From positions 27,400,069 to 27,464,068 of the forward strand of contig NC_133104.1 of NCBI RefSeq assembly GCF_022965805.1: a stretch of DNA of 64,000 nucleotides, in the 5' to 3' direction. The stretch is from Primulina eburnea (lineage: Eukaryota > Streptophyta > Magnoliopsida > Lamiales > Gesneriaceae). A program made the translations under genes and the position numbers. The notes under the pieces are model-generated. The model searched no databases. It was not told the origin of the DNA and saw only the letters and a list, made by a program, of their open reading frames with translations. Positions 7,272 to 59,291 of the stretch are shown in pieces. The first letter of the stretch is position 1. The number at the start of each line of letters is the position of its first letter.

Positions 7272-7407
7272 AGACTCTCTGTCCCCAAGTTATGCCATTC
7301 GTATACTTGGCTCAATTTGGTCTCGTAATAGCCCATCTATAATTATATCAATTTAACCTCAAAAATCTTTGATTAACATGATATAAGATCTAGGGCATTA
7401 CAATTAA

Positions 7408-9613
7408 TCTCTTTAACTAAATCCTGTATAGTAACTGGATTTTGTTGACTATATTTTTTCTGTAAAAAATTTTTAACTTCTTTCACGGAATAAGCTTGTT
7501 CTTGTTTAACAAGAATGTTATTATCATTGTTACTTGTTGAAGCAATATTCTCCATTTGATCTATAATAGTAGATTTTAAGATTGGGTCCTTAATCATTTT
7601 AAGGAATTCTAAAATATTATTGTTAGTTAAAACATTAATATTTAAATCTTGAAATTGAGACATAAGTTTATAAAACTCATCATTTTTATTATTATCCTCT
7701 ATAGGATTAACACAAGATTTTCCTAGAATACAATTATTGCATTCTTCTAAATCTGAAATATCAGATTCATTATCTATAATTTCTTCTGAATTATAAGATT
7801 CTGAAGAATTTTCAGTTTCACTGTCAGAATTATTATTTGAATCCATTATTATTTTAAATAATTTTTCTTTTAGATTATCATCTATATCTAAATTATTAAT
7901 TTTGTTTTTAGCCCAACATTGATTAGCATAATGTCCTGGCTTTTTACATTTTCTACAAGTTATTAATTTATTTTTAGCTTTATTAGCTTTTCTTTCAGCT
8001 TTCCATGATTCACGGATTTCTTTTCTTTTCTTCTTTCTATATTTTTGTCTATCAGACAAATGTCTTTTCTTATAAATCTTATCATCCTTATCTTTAATTT
8101 TCTTCTTACCTTTATTAGGTAAGTCCATACCAAATTGATCACAAAATTTACCTAGTTGTTTTTTCTCTAGTAAATTCTGTCTTTTAATTTGATTATTTAA
8201 TTTTAATTCATTACAAAGAGCTAAACCCTCTTTATTACCATAAGTATAATTATCATAAGAGATATTTATATCATCTTTTCTTAATACTTTTCTTACCCTT
8301 TCAGCAAATAAGAAAGGTAGACCATCTATAAATTTAGCTTTCCAAAGACTATTATTACAGTCTGGAATCTCATAAATACGAGATAAGAAAGTATCTTTAT
8401 ACCATCTAAAATCAGTAAGTGTTTTACATTTTAGATTACTTAATAAAGTTCTAATTTGTTCACTATTATCAGTGAATTTTCCAGTAAAATGTTCAATCAT
8501 AGTCAATATTAATGTATAAACTACATTTTCTGATTGAATATTATTTTTCATTTTTATAGAATTAAATATTTCATCTTTTTGAGAATAATGTAAATAATTA
8601 TCCCACCAACCTTTAAGTTGGCCAGTGAATCCTGCTGTTATCATTTTAGCAATATTTTTATCAGTATTACCTGATGATTTACACACAGTACTATACATAA
8701 GCATTCTGTGAGCAGTATTATAAATTTGCCTATCACTAAAACCCTCAATATTCCATTCATAAATATTTTTTCCATTATAACTATTAGCGAAAATATATTC
8801 ATTTTCTTCAATAAGGACATCCATGGGAGTAGGTTTATTATAATAATATTTGGATGTAGTAGGTCTATCAGCCCATTTAATTTTATTAATCTCTTCATCA
8901 GAATTATTAATCTTTTCTAATTCTTCAAACTCTTCATTAAGAGTATTTAAATTAAGATTTCTAAATTTTTCTTCTATTAACTTTTCTATATCAGAAATAG
9001 AGGATTTAAATTTAAAATCCTTGATATCAGGAGGGGATTGTATAGATGAAGTAGCAACAGAAACAATATTATTTTCTGGTTCTTCTATATGAACATTTGG
9101 TTTGATTTTATTAATAGCTAAAATAATTTTATCAATACGATCTTTAAGAGAATTAATCTCTTCTCCTATAATCGTAAGATATAAATTTGTATAATTCTGT
9201 TTTTCAATTATCTGATTTATATGTTTTACAGTAATTTGTAACATATCATTCTCAAATAATTTTGAAAAGGCAGTAAAATTTAAAATTTTATTATTCTTTT
9301 CTATAATAAAAGATTTTTGAGGAGGATAAACAGATTTTTGAATCTGTCCTGAAGAAAGTTTATAATTTCTTTCAAGAATAGAAATATAATCTATAATAAA
9401 TGTTTTGAAAAACCAAGGAACAAAATGTATTAATTTATTCTGATTTTCACAATATTTATAAAATGTTGAAACAATATATTCAAACTCTTCTTCAGAGAAA
9501 CTTTTAAAGTACCAATCTCTGAAAGATTCCCATTTGGATAAATAAAATTCTGCATTAATCTTTGCTCTAGCAGAAGATCCTTTAGTAAAATCAATTTTTG
9601 ATTTACTATCCAT
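7408..9613 (-). CDS. Pararetrovirus capsid part of polyprotein, copy A
   Basis: The frame opens at the ATG at 9613, whose A overlaps the movement protein stop (TAATG), an arrangement used for coupled re-initiation. It is open for over 730 codons until the solo LTR (the chance read-through stop is at 7373). Visible features: a Lys-rich basic tract, a CRKCKKPGHYANQC zinc knuckle (CX2CX4HX4C) typical of caulimovirid coat proteins, and acidic Ser/Glu/Asp runs after it. A 24 nt in-frame loss relative to copy B lies before the Lys-rich tract. The product would package viral nucleic acid. The protease and RT that should follow lie beyond the solo LTR at 5632-3539. Confidence 0.88.
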
Positions 9614-28026: not shown

Positions 28027-29081
28027 ATGAATATTTTCAGTTTAAAAGAAACTGTTCATAACAGTTTAAATGAAGAATATGATTTATTTGAAAATTTAGA
28101 TTTATTGAATAAATGGACTATTCTTAAGATAGAATCTAAAATGATCTATAAGTTAGGAACTTTTGAAAGAATTGGTTTTAAACAAGTAGTTAAAACTACA
28201 GAATCATCAGTACCTCTTCATAATGAAGAAATGGTTATTAGATTGTTAATTAATAAAGATATTATGCCTTATATGAAAAATTATAAATTTATTCATATAG
28301 GTTTAATTCAAATTGCTTTTAGACCTTTAACTTTAGAAGGTTTACCAGAAAGCTTTATAGCAGCTTTAAGAGATGGAAGAAATTTGAATTGGAAACAATC
28401 CCTTATGGGAATAATTCAATCTAGTCTGACTCATGGTCCAGTATATTTTGATGTTTATCCATATTTATCTTTATCTTTATCTGATATTAATATATTAGAT
28501 TCTTTAACATTAAATGTTAAAACTCATGGTTATAATTATACTCCTGGAACAGAAGTTATATGTATCTGTTATGTATATATTATAAACCATTATTTACACT
28601 GAATCCTATGTGTAAAAGAATAGATAAAAAATTAAATGAAACTATTCTTATAGAAACTAATTTTAATAGATCTAATATTACAACCCGTAGATCTATAAAA
28701 TGGGAAGAAATTGAATTTCCAGAAAACTGGATAATTGAACAAGCTGTTCCTAGAAATCCTATAATAAATAGAGATTTACAACAAATTATTCAAAATAATG
28801 AAGGATCTGTTCAAATACAGTTTAATAATGAACAAAGAAGATTATTACCATCTTCTATATATGTTAGATCAAGATCTAGTCATTCTTTTATTTCTCCTCT
28901 AGATTCCATGGTAGATATACCACAAACTTCTAGAGCATCTACTTCTCAAGTTAGAGAAGATTTAGAATCTACTAATACAGTAGATGATTTAATTATAAAT
29001 CAAAATAATATTGTTCATAAAAGTAACTTTCAAAAAGTTAGAGAAACTGATACAGTTTCAGAAATGAATTTTAGTACTTAA
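28027..29081 (+). pseudogene. Pararetrovirus movement protein, copy B, one frameshift
   Basis: About 350 codons from the ATG at 28027 to the stop at 29079-29081. Same 30K-type core as copy A (IHIGLIQIAFRPL; FDVYPYLSLSLSD). A single-base loss relative to copy A near 28580, in the ICICY segment, moves the first part into another frame that ends at 28602. The remainder (to 29081) stays open. An upstream ATG at 27898 is in frame but lies before the PBS, so 28027 is preferred. The stop overlaps the next start as TAATG. The C-terminus is rich in Ser/Thr and Asn. Confidence 0.85.
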
Positions 29082-31631
29082 TGGATAGTAAATCAAAAAT
29101 TGATTTTACTAAAGGATCTTCTGCTAGAGCAAAGATTAATGCAGAATTTTATTTATCCAAATGGGAATCTTTCAGAGATTGGTACTTTAAAAGTTTCTCT
29201 GAAAAAGAGTTTGAATATATTGTTTCAACATTTTATAAATATTGTGAAAATCAGAATAAATTAATACATTTTGTTCCTTGGTTTTTCAAAACATTTATTA
29301 TAGATTATATTTCTATTCTTGAAAGAAATTATAAACTTTCTTCAGGACAGATTCAAAAATATGTTTATCCTCCTCAAAAATCTTTTATTATAGAAAAGAA
29401 TAATAAAATTTTAAATTTTACTGCCTTTTCAAAATTATTTGAGAATGATATGTTACAAATTACTGTAAAACATATAAATCAGATAATTGAAAAACAGAAT
29501 TATACAAATTTATATCTTACGATTATAGGAGAAGAGATTAATTCTCTTAAAGATCGTATTGATAAAATTATTTTAGCTATTAATAAAATCAAACCAGATG
29601 TTCATATAGAAGAACCGGAAAATAATATTGTTTCTGTTGCTACTTCATCTATACAATCCCCTCCTGATATCAAGGATTTTAAATTTAAATCCTCTATTTC
29701 TGATATAGAAAAGTTAATAGAAGAAAAATTTAGAAATCTTAATTTAAATACTCTTAATGAAGAGTTTGAAAAATTAGAAAAGATTAATAATTCTGATGAA
29801 GAGATTAATAAAATTAAATGGGCTGATAGACCTACTACATCCAAATATTATTATAATAAACCTACTCCCATGGATGTCCTTATTGAAGAAAATGAATATA
29901 TTTTCGCTAATAGTTATAATGGAAAAAATATTTATGAATGTAATATCGATGGTTTTAGTGATAGGCAAATTTATAATACTGCTCACAGAATACTTATGTA
30001 TAGTACGGTGTGTAAATCATCAGGTAATACTGATAAAAATATTGCTAAAATGATAACAGCAGGATTCACTGGCCAACTTAAAGGTTGGTGGGATAATTAT
30101 TTACATTATTCTCAAAAAGATGAAATCTTTAATTCTATAAAGATGGAAAATAATATTCAATCAGAAAATGTAGTTTATACATTAATATTGACTATGATTG
30201 AACATTTTACTGGAGAATTCACTGATATTAGTGAACAAATTAGAACTTTATTAAGTAATCTAAAATGTAAAACACTTACTGATTTTAGATGGTATAAAGA
30301 TACTTTCTTATCTCGTATTTATGAGATTCCAAACTGTAATAATAGTCTTTGGAAAGCTAAATTTATAGATGGTCTACCTTTCTTATTTGCTGAAAGGGTA
30401 AGAAAAGTATTAAGAAAAGATGATATAAATATTTCTTATGATAATTATATTTATGGTAATTTGATAAATACTTGTATTCAAGAGGGTTTAGCTCTTTGTA
30501 ATGAATTAAAATTAAATAATCAAATTAAAAGACAGAATTTACTAGAGAAAAAACAACTAGGTAAATTTTGTGATCAATTTGGTATGGACTTACCTAATAA
30601 AGGTAAGAAGAAAATTAAAGATAAGGATGATAAGATTTATAAGAAAAGACATTTGTCTGATAGACAAAAAGATAGAAAGAAGAAAAGAAAAGAAATCCGT
30701 GAATCATGGAAAGCTGAAAGAAAAGCTAATAAAGCTAAAAATAAATTAATAATTTGTAGAAAATGTAAAAAACCAGGACATTATGCTAATCAATGTTGGG
30801 CTAAAAACAAAATTAATAATTTAGATATAGATGATAATCTAAAAGAAAAATTATTTAAAATAATAATGGATTCTAATAATAATTGTGATAGTGAAACTGA
30901 GAATTCTTCAGAATCTTATAATTCAGAAGAAATTATAGATAATGAATCTGATATTTCAGATTTAGAAGAATGCAATAATTGTATTCTAGGAAAATCTTGT
31001 ATTAATCCTATAGAGGATAATAATAAAAATGATGAGTTTTATAAACTTATGTCTCAATTTCAAGATTTAAATATTAATGTTTTAACTAACAATAACATTT
31101 TAGAATTCCTTAAAATGATTAAGGACCCAATATTAAAATCTACTATTATAGATCAAATGGAGAATACTGCTTCAACAAGTAACAATGATAATAACATTCT
31201 TGTTAAACAAGAACAAGCTTATTCCATGAAAGAAGTTAAAAATCTTTTACAGAAAAAATATAGTCAACAAAATCCAGTTACTATACAGGATTTAGTTAAA
31301 GAAATTGATAATCTAAAAGAACAAGTAAAAATTTTACATAATAACAATAATAGTTTAAATTATCGTATTACAGTCATTGAAAATAATAATAATAATTCAA
31401 TTTCTGAAAGTTTTGAAAATATTCAAGATATTTCATTTCCTGATAATAATCAGAAACATTTATCTGTTTTGAGTATGATAATATCTCAAAAATGGTATAC
31501 TAATATTACTTTATTAATTGATAATTCTTATAAAAAGAATTTCATTGCTATGATAGATAGTGGTGCAGATTTAAATGTTATACAGGAAAGATTAATTCCT
31601 ACAAAATATTTTCATAAAACTACACATTCTC
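29081..31631 (+). CDS. Pararetrovirus capsid-protease polyprotein, copy B, cut by G1
   Basis: 850 open codons. Residues 1-250 are a helical N-terminal region. The gag/coat core is near 270-450 (GFTGQLKGWWDNY). A Lys/Arg-rich tract precedes the zinc knuckle CRKCKKPGHYANQC at about 559-572, and acidic Ser/Asn runs follow. A probable coiled coil lies near 740-770. The protease active site MIDSGADLNVI is near 823-833. RT and RNase H should follow but G1 inserts 20 codons after the protease motif. Relative to copy A it keeps eight extra residues before the basic tract. No stop or frameshift is seen, so a truncated product could still be made if transcribed. Confidence 0.9.
31627..31631. repeat. 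Target duplication TTCTC of G1 (partner 62994-62998)
   Basis: TTCTC immediately precedes TGTAGAACCC and recurs directly after the 3' LTR. Joining the flanks restores the viral protease frame seen in copy A. Confidence 0.95.
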
Positions 31632-34600
31632 TGTAGAACCCGTAAAATCAGTAGACGTATAAGCCATGCATAATTCTAGATTTTTAAATTTAATTAACTT
31701 CATTGCATGATTATTTTTTTTATGCATTTATTTGAAGTTAATTATTTATTTATTCAGTTCAGTAGTTGATTTTCAGCATTTCAGTTATTTCAGTGAGACC
31801 GGACCGGAGTTGGAGTTTAGAGATAAATTTAAGATTTCAGAAAATATTTCCATGATTTAATTTAGCTAGCAACTAAGTTCAATTTAAGTTAAAAGAAGGT
31901 TGGAGGATTTATTTTAATAATTTGAGGTGATTAAGAAATGAACTCATTTAAGTTGTTTATTTAAGTGGTTAGTTCACTAAATTATTTAAGGGGATAGTGA
32001 GGTTCCTAAGGGTTAGTAATTATCAACTAGATGTCAATATTATCCTTCCATTTTAGTAGTTAATATCGGCCACCCCTTGGAGATGCAATAATTCAATTGC
32101 CAACTCATCCTTTGACCCCTTCTTGATTTGTTTAAGATATTAAGCTTTTTAATTATTTTGTTCCACCTTAATTAATTAATGTAGAGCATTATCCAACCCT
32201 ATTCTAGTAGTAGAATCGGCCACCACCACCTAGCAAACACCAACAACTCATTTGATTCAAAATTCAAAATTTAAATGAGAGTGGACTTAGTCATGTTGTG
32301 GCCTTATATCTTGCACCCTCTCCTCACCTTCCTAACCATTTCTCCCCCCTCTCATTTTCGAAAATTCAGAGTGTTTTCAGAGCTGATAACCGTGAGAATC
32401 CAGTAGGAGATAGGAGAGAAAAAAAAATCGAGTGCAAGAAAGATAGAAAAGAAGCACTCCACTCCTTCGTGCCGCGTCGTCGTCGTTTCGTTCGTTTTCT
32501 TTCGAAACGAATTCCAGGCATGTCTATATTCTTTTCTAAACCTCAATCAAGTCCTATATTATTTTATAGCATCAAATGGTCTCGATTTTTCAGCAGGAAA
32601 CCGATTTTTTGACAGCAACATCACTTAAAAAAATTCTGCACAGTTTTATTCCTTGTGCTCTTCACGGTTTGGCTTGTTTTTGTGCATTCAGGTGGTTGGC
32701 TCGACTCCAGGCTCACCAGGCTACATCTAGACACATACTAGGGTGTGTCAAGACCGTGATGGTCCATTAAAACCAGCCCCATACATGTCAGAATTCGGAA
32801 ATGACAGCAACCCTCCCCCTTGCATCTTATGAGTTTCGAAAATTTCAGTTTTGCTGTCATGGGAAGAGATCTGATCTTGGCTGCCCCAGGGGCTTATAGC
32901 CATGGTTAGATCACTTCCCTAGCACGTCTAAGACGTGACTAAGTCGCCCTTTTGGTGGCTTGGTCCATGGCTCCGCGGTTTGTAAATAAAACGTCACAAC
33001 AGCCCCTCCCCTTTCTCGGCTCTTGAGTTTTGACAGCAGGTTTGCATTTCGTTTTTGTGGCTTGGTGTGGATCTGGTTCGGCCTTGTGCCCTTAGCCACG
33101 GTCCATACCACACCCCAAGATGTCTAGGTCGTGCCACGGTAAATTAATGGCCACTGGAACGACGCAAGATAACCCACAAAACAAGAACAGCCCACACTCC
33201 CCTTCTCGGCCCTTCATTGTACAGCACATGCATTTCGGTTTTGGGTTGCTTGGTGTGAATCTTGGTTGGCCTATGGCCCATAGCCACGGTTCATACCATG
33301 CCCCTACATGTCTAGATCGTGCCATGGTCAACCAAATGGCCACCGGAACGACGCAAGACATCGATCAAAGCAAGACACTACACTTGCACAGCTGCTGGAA
33401 ATTACAGCAACTTGCTGTGTCGATTAGGAGGCTCGTTTGAGTTCTTGGTTGGCTTTTAGCCTATGGCCTTGGACTGGACAGTGCCCCATTGAGTTAGGAA
33501 GGTCATGTTTTCGACCGTTCGTGATTCGGATCATTTTTGAGGTCGTTCGAGAATTTACGGTGCGATGTGCCAAATTGACTCTCAAAAGAGCGTTTCATGT
33601 TTTGGCCTCCATTTCACCTAGATTTCGACCCTCATAATTTTAGGAGCATAAATTCATAATTTAAACGTATTTTAATCATGACGTCACGTTGGTTCAGTGT
33701 TGGTTCGGGTTGGTTTAAAGTCATGATTAAATACGAGGTCGTTAGAAGTAGTTGTCGCATTTTAGAAATTTAATTGCATAAATTTGCCTAAGAAAAATCC
33801 ATTGCATATTTTCATGGCATTTTTAGGTTGCAGCGAGCCTGGGGACGATCCATTCCAGTTGGTAAAATTTCAGGATATTTTCATTATCGTCAATTAATTA
33901 TTTTACGTGCATGAAAACAGAAAAATGATTATTTTTGAGATTTATGCGATATTTTTGAGCATTATTATTATTTATACGGTCGCCAGTGACCGCTCAGTTC
34001 AGGTTGGTACCATCGGGTCTTCAGTGACCGCTCAGTTCAGGTTGGTACCATCGGGTCTTCAGTGACCGCCAGCTCAGTTCCAGGCTCCCCGGTAGTCAGT
34101 TAACGATCAGTTTAGCTTAGTGCAGTGGCCACAGGCGTAAAACATAATCTCAACAGAAAATTTTATCAGTTATTTCAGTGCAGGCTCCAAGGAGCAATTA
34201 TTTTCACTGTGATTATCAGTTCAGCATGCACGTATTATAATTGCTCAGTACAGATTATTTTCAGCATGTCACATGGCATGATATTTTATCCCATGCATAT
34301 TTTACTCCAGATTTTTACTCGTTACCTGCGATATATGCATGCTGAGTCTTTAGACTCACTAGACTTGATTGTTGTAGGTACTGATGAGGTCAGGGCCGAG
34401 GGCGGGGACCAGTGAGCCAGCTTGGGTCGGCAGTAGTGGCACCCGAGGACCTCAGTGCAGCAGTGTTTATTTTATTCCGCAAACAAATTTTTATCAGTCA
34501 TTGGATATTTTTTTTAAAATTGTTATTGTTGGCAAACAATTATTTTCTTCCGCTGCAACCTTTTTGAAACATTGAACTTGATTCACCAGTTGATTTTATG

Positions 34601-38986: not shown

Positions 38987-39479
38987 TGAAGAACCTAAAG
39001 GGGGGGTGAATAGGTTCTTTTAGGCCCTTTAGCGTTTTTAAAACGAGTTTGCAAAAATTGCAAGCGGAAGACTTGAGGGACAATCACAAATAAAATGAAT
39101 GCGTAAAGTAAGTGCGTAAAATAAATGCGTAGTAAAGTAAATGCGTAAAGTAAAGAGGGATAGAGATGTTTATGGAAGTTCGACGAAGAATCGTCTACGT
39201 CTCCCCTTCTCGATGAGGATCGAGGTATCACTATATCGACTTGGCTTTAGGAGCTCCAAACTAGCTTTTACAACCACGCCTCGATGCGTCTACTTGGCCT
39301 TGAGGGCTCCAAGGATAGCCACGAACTTTACAACCCACTCGAGAGTATTACTTTCACTCTTTTTCTACAACTCTTTTGATATTACAACTCTTTTAATCAA
39401 CGCACACAAGAGATAGTAGAAAGCTTTGTAAGAGACAAGAGAGTGGAGTGGGATGATTGAAAATGCATCCTCAAAGGCC

Positions 39480-39487
39480 TATTTATA
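39480..39487 (-). promoter_or_regulatory. TATA box of copia LTR
   Basis: Minus strand TATAAATAGGCC. Same box at 47394-47387 and 58641-58634 in the other LTRs. It lies 18 bp after the palindrome array in the direction of transcription. Confidence 0.75.
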
Positions 39488-39505
39488 CTAGTCTTGGACG
39501 CCAAG

Positions 39506-39981
39506 GTTCGGATCTTCTGTTTATGCTTCGGAACGTCCGATGTGATTGAAATCAATTTCCGTAATTTTGGGATGACTTCGGATCGTCCGTTCTTGACTTC
39601 GTAGGGTCCGAACATGCGCTTCGGAGGGACCGATCAAACTTCGTATCTTCCGAACAGTTCTTTCAGACAGTGTGTGAACAGCTTCGGAAGGTCCGAACTC
39701 AAGTTCGTACCGTCCGAACATTCCCGCGTTTCCAGAGATTTGAAATCTTCAACACTTCGTAGCGTCCGATCATGTCCTTCGTAGCGTCCGAAATCTTACT
39801 CGATCAATCAGTCATATCAATTTGTCTCCGCATTGAAGTGATTTGATTGCTTGTGTTCGGAACGTCCGATCACGTCTTCGGAACGTCCGAACGCTCTCCT
39901 CGCAGCTTCCGAACAGCTTCTATTTTGCTTCTGAATTGCACAATTTCGGACCGTCCGAACCGAATGTCGGATCTTCCGAAC
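39506..39981. repeat. Palindrome array in copia LTR U3
   Basis: About fifteen imperfect copies of TTCGGAACGTCCGAAC-type motifs, each nearly self-complementary, spaced about 20-40 bp. Matching arrays at 47413-47886 and 58660-59135, and an internal one at 41811-42126. Confidence 0.85.
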
Positions 39982-40137
39982 GTAACCTGTTCTTAATTTC
40001 CTGCATGCCTCAATATAAAACATTAGTACATTTTTAATCCAAGTTTTGGTATCATCAAAACAAAAACTTTGGGATATGTTACAGCATTAAAAACATTAAT
40101 CTCATCCTCGAGATTTGTATGCGTTTAAGGCGTAACA

Positions 40138-40488: not shown

Positions 40489-41721
40489 TCAGCCTCGATG
40501 GAATCCAGACGCGAAGAAGTCTCGGTATGATGGCGCTCTAAGGTAGACTCTAAAAGAGAAAAAACGAGTGTCGAAACGAGTCTCCAATCGCTCGAGATAC
40601 TCGAAAATCCGATCGTAGGGTCCAGAGGGAGCAGGCGGAGTGAAGCCATGAGGAAGGTCATCCATGGTCATCAAAGGAGTGCTAATAGGGTCGGGAACAC
40701 GCTGATGGGATGAAGAGGGAATATCAACCGAAGGGGTAGGAGTGGTACCCGTAGTAGGGGGACCAGCGGGAAATCCTCTCGTCTGAACGTGAGGAGGAAG
40801 GAGACCGAAGGGAACATGAAAGTGTTCGGTCGGACGATAGGACGCAAAGATGCGATCCTTGTCGATGACCCAAGAGGATAAGACGGGATTCCAAGAGAGT
40901 CCCATCTTAACAACAGTATCATGGTCGATAGTCTCGCGAGGAGAAATAGATAAGGATTCTTCATCTGTAAAGTCAATGCCCAGATGGGCTAGAATCCGGT
41001 TAATGAACCGGCCAAATGGAAAAGAGACGCGAGTAGAAGAAGCCGCGTACTCCATGGCGTACATAAGAAAACGGGGAAGGTTAAAAGGACGCTGGGAGAC
41101 TAAATAATAGAGAATGTACAGATCGAGATATTTGCAAGTGGAGAGGTCTCCACTGCGAGGAACAATAGAAGAAGTGATGAGCTTCAGAACAAGCTGAAGC
41201 TGAGGAGAAAGGTCCTTCGCATGAGGACGGTCATCGGCAGGAGTAGGCGGACGACCGAAGATGGTGGTCAAGGCAGTGACTCGATCAAAAGTGGGGTCAT
41301 TCTCAGTCCAAGACTGAGAAAAGAACTCACTCGGTCCGTCTCGAGGAAGATCGAACCAAGTGGAGAGGTCGGCGGTAGAAAAAGAAATGAACCGACCCTG
41401 AACAATGGTAACAACACGAGTGTCATCACCACCAAGAACTAAGGAAAAGTTCGCATAGAACTGATGTATGAGAGAGGGGTAGATGATATCGGGTACGGAA
41501 GGTAGAAAGAAGTTTCCCCAACGTTGAGACTCAATAAGAGTAATCAACGTAAAGAAATTTGCACGAAGATAATCGGTGTGAAGGGTACGACCAGGCAGAA
41601 TGTTACGGGTTTCGAATTCAGGTGGGATAGGACGAGGGTTGGGTGGTTGAGTAAGATCATGGTGAAAGGCACCGTGACGAGGGCGAACATTTCGGCCAGC
41701 TACGTTACGGCGCGGAGGCAT
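40489..41721 (-). CDS. Additional ORF of copia C1 (plant retroelement extra-gene family)
   Basis: Open frame of 410 codons in the sense direction after pol. It begins MPPRRNVAGRNVRPRHG (basic). A central domain contains HQFYANFSLV and later VQGRFISFSTADLSTWFDLP. A Pro/Ser/Thr-rich C-terminal part follows. The FYAN...V-x-G-R pattern also occurs in the additional ORF of the Athila-like element at 55590-56451, so I place both in the plant retrotransposon extra-ORF family sometimes labelled putative plant transposon protein. No signal peptide or clear membrane segment is seen, so an envelope role is not supported. The function is unknown. The ATG lies about 75 bp downstream of an internal TATA box. 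Confidence 0.8.
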   Translation of the reverse strand: MPPRRNVAGRNVRPRHGAFHHDLTQPPNPRPIPPEFETRNILPGRTLHTDYLRANFFTLITLIESQRWGNFFLPSVPDIIYPSLIHQFYANFSLVLGGDDTRVVTIVQGRFISFSTADLSTWFDLPRDGPSEFFSQSWTENDPTFDRVTALTTIFGRPPTPADDRPHAKDLSPQLQLVLKLITSSIVPRSGDLSTCKYLDLYILYYLVSQRPFNLPRFLMYAMEYAASSTRVSFPFGRFINRILAHLGIDFTDEESLSISPRETIDHDTVVKMGLSWNPVLSSWVIDKDRIFASYRPTEHFHVPFGLLPPHVQTRGFPAGPPTTGTTPTPSVDIPSSSHQRVPDPISTPLMTMDDLPHGFTPPAPSGPYDRIFEYLERLETRFDTRFFSFRVYLRAPSYRDFFASGFHRG

Positions 41722-41796
41722 AGTGAGTAGTGAGTGTTTTGTGTGGGGAAAGAAAGAAGGAGTGAATGAGCAAATAAATCAGAGGATCCGAACGCC

Positions 41797-41804
41797 TATT
41801 TATA
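41797..41804 (-). promoter_or_regulatory. Internal TATA box before copia additional ORF
   Basis: The minus strand reads GGCCTATAAATAGGC, sharing TATAAATAGGC with the LTR promoter. It lies 7 bp after an array of the same TTCGGA...TCCGAA palindromes and 76 bp before the ATG at 41721. It would give a 5' leader of about 45-50 nt. Confidence 0.6.
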
Positions 41805-41810
41805 GGCCAT

Positions 41811-42126
41811 GTTCGGACGGTCCGAACATGAGTTCGGAAGGTCCGGAATTTGAACGGAACGGTTATCTGGCAGTCAGTTCGGACGATCCGATTCACAATC
41901 GGACAATCCGATCATAGAACGGAGGCTACGAAGCGTAAACGGAGAGTCCGAAGTCTGACAATCAGGCATGGGAAGGCGCGAACATTTAATGACATCGGAA
42001 GGGGGTTCGGACGATCCGATGTGTGTTCGGATGGTCCGAAGAGTGAATCGGAGGTTCTGGAACCTATGGTCAGGTTCGGACGATCCGAACAGGTTCTTTG
42101 GATCCGAGGTGAAACGGAGCATCCGA
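41811..42126. repeat. Internal palindrome array between copia pol and additional ORF
   Basis: About eight motifs such as GTTCGGACGGTCCGAAC and GTTCGGACGATCCGAAC, of the same type as in the LTR U3 but with different centre bases. The pol stop is at 42317 and the 42127-42316 stretch is otherwise AT-rich and featureless. Confidence 0.85.
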
Positions 42127-42316
42127 ATAGGAGCGGTGATTCCGAAGTAGCCAAGATGAGGAACACCTAAAATTTAAAATATTTAGCACATAAATGAATG
42201 TTGAGCCATAATTATGGATAAATACAATTAATTTGTATTATCCGACATTATAATGCTCACATTAATAATACTCCCCCTCAATTTAACAAATATGTACGAG
42301 AGTATTCGACTAGTGT

Positions 42317-46890: not shown

Positions 46891-48043
46891 TGAAGAACCT
46901 AAAGGGGGGGTGAATAGGTTCTTTAAGGCCCTTTAGCGTTTTTAAAACGAGTTTGCAAAAATTGCAAGCGGAAGACTTGAGGGACAATCACAAATAAAAA
47001 TAAATGCGTAAAGTAAGTGCGTAAAATAAATGCGTAGTAAAGTAAATGCGTAAAGTAAAGAGGGATAGAGATGTTTATGGAAGTTCGACGAAGAATCGTC
47101 TACGTCTCCCCTTCTCGATGAGGATCGAGGTATCACTATGACGAATTGGCTTTAGGAGCTCCAAGCTAGCTTTTACAACCACGCCTCGATGCGTCTACTT
47201 GGCCTTGAGGGCTCCAAGGATAGCCACGAACTTTACAACCCACTCGAGAGTATTACTTTCACTCTTTTTCTACAACTCTTTTGATATTACAACTCTTTTA
47301 ATCAACGCACACAAGAGATAGTAGAAAGCTTTGTAAGAGACAAGAGAGAATGGAGTGGGATGATTGAGAATGCATCCTCAAAGGCCTATTTATACTAGTC
47401 TTGGACGCCAAGGTTCGGATCTTCTGTTTATACTTCGGAACGTCCGATGTGATTGAAATCAATTTGCGTAATTCTGGAATGACTTCGGATCTTCCGTTCT
47501 TGACTTCGTAGGGTCCGAACATATGCTTCGGAGGGACCGATCAAACTTCGTTTCTTCTGAACAGTTCTTTTAGACAGTGTATGAACAACTTCGGAAGGTC
47601 CGAACTCTAGTTCGTACCGTCCGATCATTCCCGCGTTTCCGGAGATTTGAAATCTTCAACACTTCGTAGCTTCCGATCATGTCCATCGTAGCGTCCGAAA
47701 TCTACTCAATCAACAGTCAGATCAATTTGTCTCCGGATTGAAGTGATTTGATTGCTTGTGTTCGGAACGTCCGATCCAGTCTTCGGAACGTCCGAACTTG
47801 CTCCTCGCAGCTTCTGAACAGCTTCTATTTTGCTTCTGATTGGCACAATTTCGGAACGTCTGAACCAAATTTCGGATCTTCCGAACGTAACCTTGTTCTT
47901 AATTTCCTGCATGCCTCAATATAAAACATTAGTACATTTTTAATCCAAGTTTTGGTATCATCAAAACAAAAAATTTGGGATATGTTACAGCATTAAAAAC
48001 ATTAATCTCATCCTCGAGATTTGTATGCGTTTAAGGCGTAACA
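46891..48043 (-). repeat. Middle copia LTR (C2-type), 1153 bp
   Basis: Same family as the outer C1 LTRs but with many more differences by eye, so it comes from a different copy. Contains a TATA box at 47394-47387 and a palindrome array at 47413-47886. Its outer end is followed by gypsy integrase codons, not by CTTTG. Confidence 0.92.
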
Positions 48044-58140: not shown

Positions 58141-59291
58141 TGAAGAACCTAAAGGGGGGGTGAATAGGTTCTTTTAGGCCCTTTAGCGTTTTTAAAACGA
58201 GTTTGCAAAAATTGCAAGCGGAAGACTTGAGGGACAATCACAAATAAAATGAATGCGTAAAGTAAGTGCGTAAAATAAATGCGTAGTAAAGTAAATGCGT
58301 AAAGTAAAGAGGGATAGAGATGTTTATGGAAGTTCGACGAAGAATCGTCTACGTCTCCCCTTCTCGATGAGGATCGAGGTATCACTATATCGACTTGGCT
58401 TTAGGAGCTCCAAGCTAGCTTTTACAACCACGCCTCGATGCGTCTACTTGGCCTTGAGGGCTCCAAGGATAGCCACGAACTTTACAACCCACTCGAGAGT
58501 ATTACTTTCACTCTTTTTCTACAACTCTTTTGATATTACAACTCTTTTAATCAACGCACACAAGAGATAGTAGAAAGCTTTGTAAGAGACAAGAGAGTGG
58601 AGTGGGATGATTGAAAATGCATCCTCAAAGGCCTATTTATACTAGTCTTGGACGCCAAGGTTCGGATCTTCTGTTTATGCTTCGGAACGTCCGATGTGAT
58701 TGAAATCAATTTCCGTAATTTTGGGATGACTTCGGATCGTCCGTTCTTGACTTCGTAGGGTCCGAACATGCGCTTCGGAGGGACCGATCAAACTTCGTAT
58801 CTTCCGAACAGTTCTTTCAGACAGTGTGTGAACAGCTTCGGAAGGTCCGAACTCAAGTTCGTACCGTCCGAACATTCCCGCGTTTCCAGAGATTTGAAAT
58901 CTTCAACACTTCGTAGCGTCCGATCATGTCCTTCGTAGCGTCCGAAATCTTACTCGATCAATCAGTCATATCAATTTGTCTCCGCATTGAAGTGATTTGA
59001 TTGCTTGTGTTCGGAACGTCCGATCACGTCTTCGGAACGTCCGAACGCTCTCCTCGCAGCTTCCGAACAGCTTCTATTTTGCTCCTGAATTGCACAATTT
59101 CGGACCGTCCGAACCGAATGTCGGATCTTCCGAACGTAACCTGTTCTTAATTTCCTGCATGCCTCAATATAAAACATTAGTACATTTTTAATCCAAGTTT
59201 TGGTATCATCAAAACAAAAACTTTGGGATATGTTACAGCATTAAAAACATTAATCTCATCCTCGAGATTTGTATGCGTTTAAGGCGTAACA
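58141..59291 (-). repeat. 5' LTR of copia C1, 1151 bp
   Basis: Near-identical partner of 38987-40137, followed by the CTTTG target duplication at 59292-59296. TATA box at 58641-58634, palindrome array 58660-59135. Confidence 0.95.

Follow-up and report, generated by a model that had tools for sequence, protein, structure and literature searches.

A candidate internal promoter ahead of the extra gene in a Sirevirus-type retrotransposon of Primulina eburnea

The element and its genes

The window examined here is a 64,000-bp stretch of Primulina eburnea contig NC_133104.1. Its minus strand carries an LTR retrotransposon with gag (46437-45304), pol (45307-42317), a 595-bp spacer (42316-41722), an extra ORF (41721-40489) and the 3' LTR (40137-38987) in that order. 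The pol ORF contains the Pfam domains RVT_2, rve and SH3_retrovirus, among others, and ends with TAA at 42319-42317. The extra ORF opens with an ATG at 41721, encodes 410 aa in the window copy and matches Pfam Transposase_32 (PF20167). The 3' LTR was delimited by sequence comparison between LTRs and by its junction with the terminal polypurine tract (PPT), where the octamer AGGGGGAG (40147-40140) is followed by AT and then by the TG of the LTR start (letters 40147-40136, AGGGGGAGATTG). Two other LTRs are present, one adjoining gag (46891-48043) and a third at 58141-59291. Motif matching placed the primer binding site (PBS) at 46888-46877 of the minus strand on the letters TGGTATCAGAGC, which we take to be those of the PBS motif.

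Several features of the element are hallmarks of Sireviruses. Besides the copia-type pol with RVT_2 and the AGGGGGAG-AT-TG junction at the start of the 3' LTR, they include multiple PPTs, with three octamers starting at 42278, 40228 and 40147, an array of CGG-CCG palindromes followed by a TATA box in the LTR, and a polyC run near the LTR 3' end (CCCCCC at 39006-39001 and 46910-46905). The first of the PPT octamers (42278-42271) is an exact match and lies 38 bp past pol. On these sequence hallmarks and the Pfam domains the element is classed as a Sirevirus-type (Ty1/copia) LTR retrotransposon.

The 3' LTR and the third LTR are 99.83% identical and have the flanking 5-mer CAAAG in common. The gag-adjoining LTR is 96% identical to the 3' LTR, no target-site duplication was found between these two, and its upstream flank resembles the downstream flank of the 3' LTR. 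The element (38987-59291) appears to combine sequence from two or more copies. Elsewhere in the window, ORFs with DUF7746, DUF7588 and Caulimovirus coat domains form two stretches of endogenous pararetrovirus-like sequence, at 7373-9613 (minus strand) and 29081-31636 (plus strand).

Boxes and TATA sequences of the spacer and the LTR

A 15-bp palindromic box, TTCGGA-NNN-TCCGAA with the consensus TTCGGANNNTCCGAA, recurs in the spacer. Within 41722-42316 there are 10 boxes with no more than two mismatches from TTCGGANNNTCCGAA, while 300 dinucleotide shuffles of the spacer gave a mean of 0.06 and a maximum of 1. They form an array at 42146-41812 in which box starts are mostly 19-22 bp apart, with three wider gaps. 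The initial annotation had reported both a palindrome array between the pol stop (42317) and the ATG (41721) and a TATA string 7 bp behind it, and both were recovered: the last upstream box ends at 41812 and TATAAATAGGC, the putative TATA box of an internal promoter, occupies 41804-41794. A weak box with two mismatches lies just downstream (41792-41778). A transcription start region was predicted at 41771-41767, 33-37 nt from the first T of the TATA box, using the general plant TATA-to-start distance; TG stands at 41772/41771 and CA at 41768/41767. The predicted 50-nt leader (41771-41722) has 1 G, 37 pyrimidines and no ATG. Such a context is rare, as only 6/2413 ATGs on the two strands of the window are preceded by 50 nt with at most one G. 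On the two strands of the 64 kb together, the shorter string TATAAATAG is present four times, with one occurrence in the spacer and one per LTR, always after a box array. CpG reaches an observed/expected ratio of 1.50 in the array of the spacer and 1.71 in that of the LTR, compared with 0.51 in pol.

In the U3 of the 3' LTR, box scanning and shuffling defined an array at 39980-39507 on the minus strand. The 3' LTR contains 14 boxes (shuffle mean 0.13, maximum 2) and LTR 46891-48043 contains 12 (mean 0.08, maximum 1). The remaining window holds 14 more, every one within the third LTR. The TATA box of the 3' LTR, again TATAAATAGGC, is at 39487-39477. The spacer had been said to share the arrangement of the LTR; this is true of the boxes and the TATA box, but the LTR has 19 bp between its last box (end 39507) and the TATA box rather than 7. 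The idea that the spacer is a duplicated U3 was rejected, as no sequence similarity to the LTR was found beyond the boxes and TATA. Alignments scored against shuffles were unremarkable for the box-masked spacer and LTR arrays (p 0.27), for the leaders (p 0.61) and for the regions preceding the arrays (p 0.26). What spacer and LTR have in common is the box, the box pitch and the TATA box. Since nothing else alike was found between them, the two promoters probably either arose by separate assembly around the same box or came to share it when it spread from one into the other.

The arrays of LTRs 46891-48043 and 38987-40137 (47885-47414 and 39980-39507) differ in 34/486 columns, and the other approximately 665 LTR columns in 12. 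CpG transitions make up 7/40 of the substitutions between the two whole LTRs. LTR box arrays thus change faster than their flanks.

Conservation among genomic copies

The 812-Mb genome was searched for copies of the spacer (532 first-look candidates, 40 scored) and of the extra ORF (2703 candidates, 102 scored). Fifty-three distinct copies, window copy included, were obtained, comprising 40 picked by spacer similarity and 13 new ones among 29 picked by ORF. The initial annotation had offered conservation of the spacer among family members as a check on the promoter, and the check came out in its favor. TATAAATAG and the ATG are kept in 53/53 copies (40/40 spacer-picked, 29/29 ORF-picked), all of which are young and come from one genome, within this family and its diverged subfamily. 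Among the first 30 copies, 29 carry the longer TATAAATAGGC unaltered. Genome-wide, the pattern TATAWATA-N60-90-ATGCCNCCNMG was matched 325 times, including 16 matches that form a single simple-repeat ladder; the reversed control was matched 19 times. It was found at 63/66 distinct extra-ORF loci on contigs C1-C5, with spans of 94, 95, 93 and 91 bp, and is absent from the other three, at C4:30672540, C1:51741612 and C3:37202982. In this count the ladder of 16 overlapping matches at C5:27651073 was taken as one and a single C6 match was left out. By query, the pattern accompanies 35/36 matches of P0001 and 39/41 of P0002, which are overlapping sets.

Variation across the spacer was examined at non-CpG columns of 40 copies, using 13 boxes as defined on the window copy. 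The box arms are variable in 5/108 columns and the sequence between boxes in 24/143 (Fisher p 0.0026). Variable columns number 7/31 in the box centers, 0/9 in TATAAATAG, 5/56 in the leader, 11/160 in the spacer before the array and 45/972 in the pol tail; the box arms vary as little as pol. Non-CpG columns flanking the spacer TATA are few, and 2/8 are variable. CpG columns of the box arms do mutate (9/48 variable). Low variation of the arms could also stem from recombination among boxes. The single copy L091, from a diverged subfamily with a longer open frame, gave the same picture over all columns, with 1/66 differing in the arms and 10/47 between boxes (p 0.0006), 0/9 in TATAAATAG and 7/57 in the leader. 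Another candidate for a diverged subfamily, L006, was dropped when comparison by eye against the LTR showed the end of its ORF to be LTR sequence. In the LTR arrays, where promoter function is expected, the difference is in the same direction and not significant (arms 8/122, between boxes 24/229, p 0.25), and TATAAATAG has 0/9 variable columns over 20 LTRs. Twenty LTRs had been fetched for this comparison; L045, which held no LTR, was dropped and the window LTR 46891-48043 was added.

The extra ORF scores 65.2 bits against PF20167, for which the curated cut-off is 45. It is 423 aa long in 35/40 spacer-picked copies. The variant C-terminal frame of the window copy (40489-40560) is common to L062-L064 at 99-100% identity, so it has probably propagated and is not private to this copy. 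After removal of 6/41 rows (the window copy, L001, L006, L012, L021 and L036), pN/pS over all pairs of the 35 remaining copies was 0.25 in the extra ORF against 0.28 in the pol tail, and 96/102 scored ORF matches lack an internal stop. Judged by these ratios, the extra ORF is under purifying selection. A hydropathy scan of its product gave no clear transmembrane segment (top 19-residue mean 1.06), and 'envelope' is therefore an unfitting name for it. The predicted model, with a helix at 368-421 as a possible coiled coil, has a mean pLDDT of 33.8 and is too poor to use.

Protein searches outside the genome returned as relatives only P0002 (source 'lgn', a 1581-bp contig) and one Henckelia pumila protein, and a scan of viral contigs for relatives returned none. 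In P0002 the frame is open upstream of the start as well, and this stretch aligns with several genomic copies across a TGA and a TAG. The P0002 alignment hints that leader DNA may be conserved between species. PF20167 domains are abundant in the genome (3949 first-look candidates), and the 150 that were scored reach 150-167 bits, compared with 65 for the extra ORF. The same domain is reported in the extra ORF of an Athila element in a sunflower study (PMC11728184).

Routes of expression for the extra gene

The mode of expression of the gene behind pol in Sireviruses is a long-standing question (PMC2829016). Neumann et al. (2019, PMC6317226) report that 74% of SIRE elements carry a 3' extra ORF and that these fall into 19 groups which barely resemble one another, if at all. 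Bousios et al. (2010, PMC2829016) described clusters of the box, called RM, in 13 Sireviruses, upstream of ENV in nine, with 77/79 linker copies of RM lying upstream of ENV, and related the clusters both to CpG islands and to the TATA box of the LTR. The same paper credits the internal-promoter hypothesis to Peterson-Burch and Voytas (2002), who failed to find such a promoter; Bousios et al. likewise could not conclusively identify a promoter upstream of ENV. The array described here resembles the RM clusters in its CGG-CCG palindromes, its CpG richness and the presence of the same motif in the LTR and before the extra gene, which places it with the RM clusters upstream of ENV. Whereas PMC2829016 reports TATA in LTRs, here a TATA box and a leader also follow the internal array. 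The initial annotation knew of no such promoter described for SIRE-like elements. RM clusters and the internal-promoter hypothesis were in fact in print, and the statement holds to the extent that the available text of PMC2829016 gives no conclusive promoter; nor did the open-licence literature, as far as its text was available, yield a report of a mapped Sirevirus internal promoter. Box arrays being already known, the addition is a core promoter, that is a well-placed TATA box and leader, beside the array and with evidence of constraint.

Because the extra protein is conserved, a route for its expression is needed. The spacer probably acts as a second Pol II promoter, internal and U3-like, whose layout follows that of the LTR promoter and from which a separate short mRNA for the extra gene would start. 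Promoter anatomy and conservation across copies support this interpretation; an own, U3-like promoter as first suggested is kept, but its origin as a U3 duplicate is not. It is unlikely that the array instead serves structure or silencing, as palindromes that form hairpins, CpG-rich DNA or a small-RNA target, and spread inside the element next to an incidental TATA-like string. The fast evolution of the LTR arrays and the high CpG density of the arrays would suit such a feature, but copies of the family, the diverged subfamily included, retain the TATA box at its place together with the leader, and within the window TATAAATAG is seen solely after box arrays. The spacer might also be what remains of an old LTR that stood after the first PPT directly behind pol, the extra gene having been captured downstream of it. 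An old 3' end requires a PPT such as the octamer past pol, but PPT copies before ENV exist in some Sireviruses (7/63 upstream PPTs; PMC2829016) and similarity to the present LTR was detected in boxes and TATA only, making this origin very unlikely.

Two further routes would start from an LTR transcript. Splicing, as in BAGY2, is one way in which other plant elements are known to express env-like genes (PMC2829016, PMC7264820), and an acceptor at the AG inside TATAAATAG (41797-41796) would give an ATG-free leader. This AG lacks a preceding pyrimidine tract, however, and the absence of any AG between 41795 and the extra-ORF ATG disfavors an acceptor after the pyrimidine-rich leader. Splicing would also leave the array and TATA unexplained, and we consider it quite unlikely. 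Translation from genomic RNA by stop read-through or reinitiation has a precedent in SIRE1, also a Sirevirus with a gene downstream of pol, where the env-like gene is expressed by stop-codon suppression (cited in PMC2829016). In SIRE1 a single stop codon lies between pol and env (PMC2829016), whereas here the spacer of 595 bp intervenes. With a further stop after 12 codons in the pol frame and 11 ATGs in the spacer, neither read-through nor scanning from genomic RNA looks promising; the pol stop is TAA in 40/40 copies, and this route is highly improbable.

If the spacer acts as an internal promoter, transcription would start near 41771-41767, bypassing the 11 upstream ATGs, with the extra-gene mRNA running as far as the polyadenylation site in the 3' LTR. 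Without a 5' LTR and PBS, this short RNA would have a role in translation only. A host factor binding the boxes may act on both the LTR and the internal promoter, so that genomic RNA and extra-gene mRNA would be switched on together.

Foamy virus has an internal promoter upstream of its 3' accessory genes, and the maize element Grande belongs to Ty3/gypsy. The former is likened to the present element by layout alone, as an unrelated virus group with a second promoter before a 3' accessory gene in a reverse-transcribing element. Grande gene23 has its own promoter (Gomez-Orte 2013, cited in PMC7264820) and, like the extra gene with its candidate promoter, is an accessory gene in the 3' internal region. 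Unlike the extra gene it is antisense, and an LTR-like box array is not mentioned for Grande in the available text of PMC7264820.

More broadly, and tentatively, Sireviruses may be two-promoter retroelements in which a second U3, rebuilt from the same box rather than copied from the LTR, stands before a fast-changing 3' gene and one host factor drives both RNAs. As the family is young, has matches at about 300 loci and combines a defined TATA box with a short leader, the question of expression is directly testable. If true, the two-promoter interpretation would supply the promoter that was proposed for Sireviruses but not found, and plant copia elements would control an accessory gene through a second promoter matched to the first.
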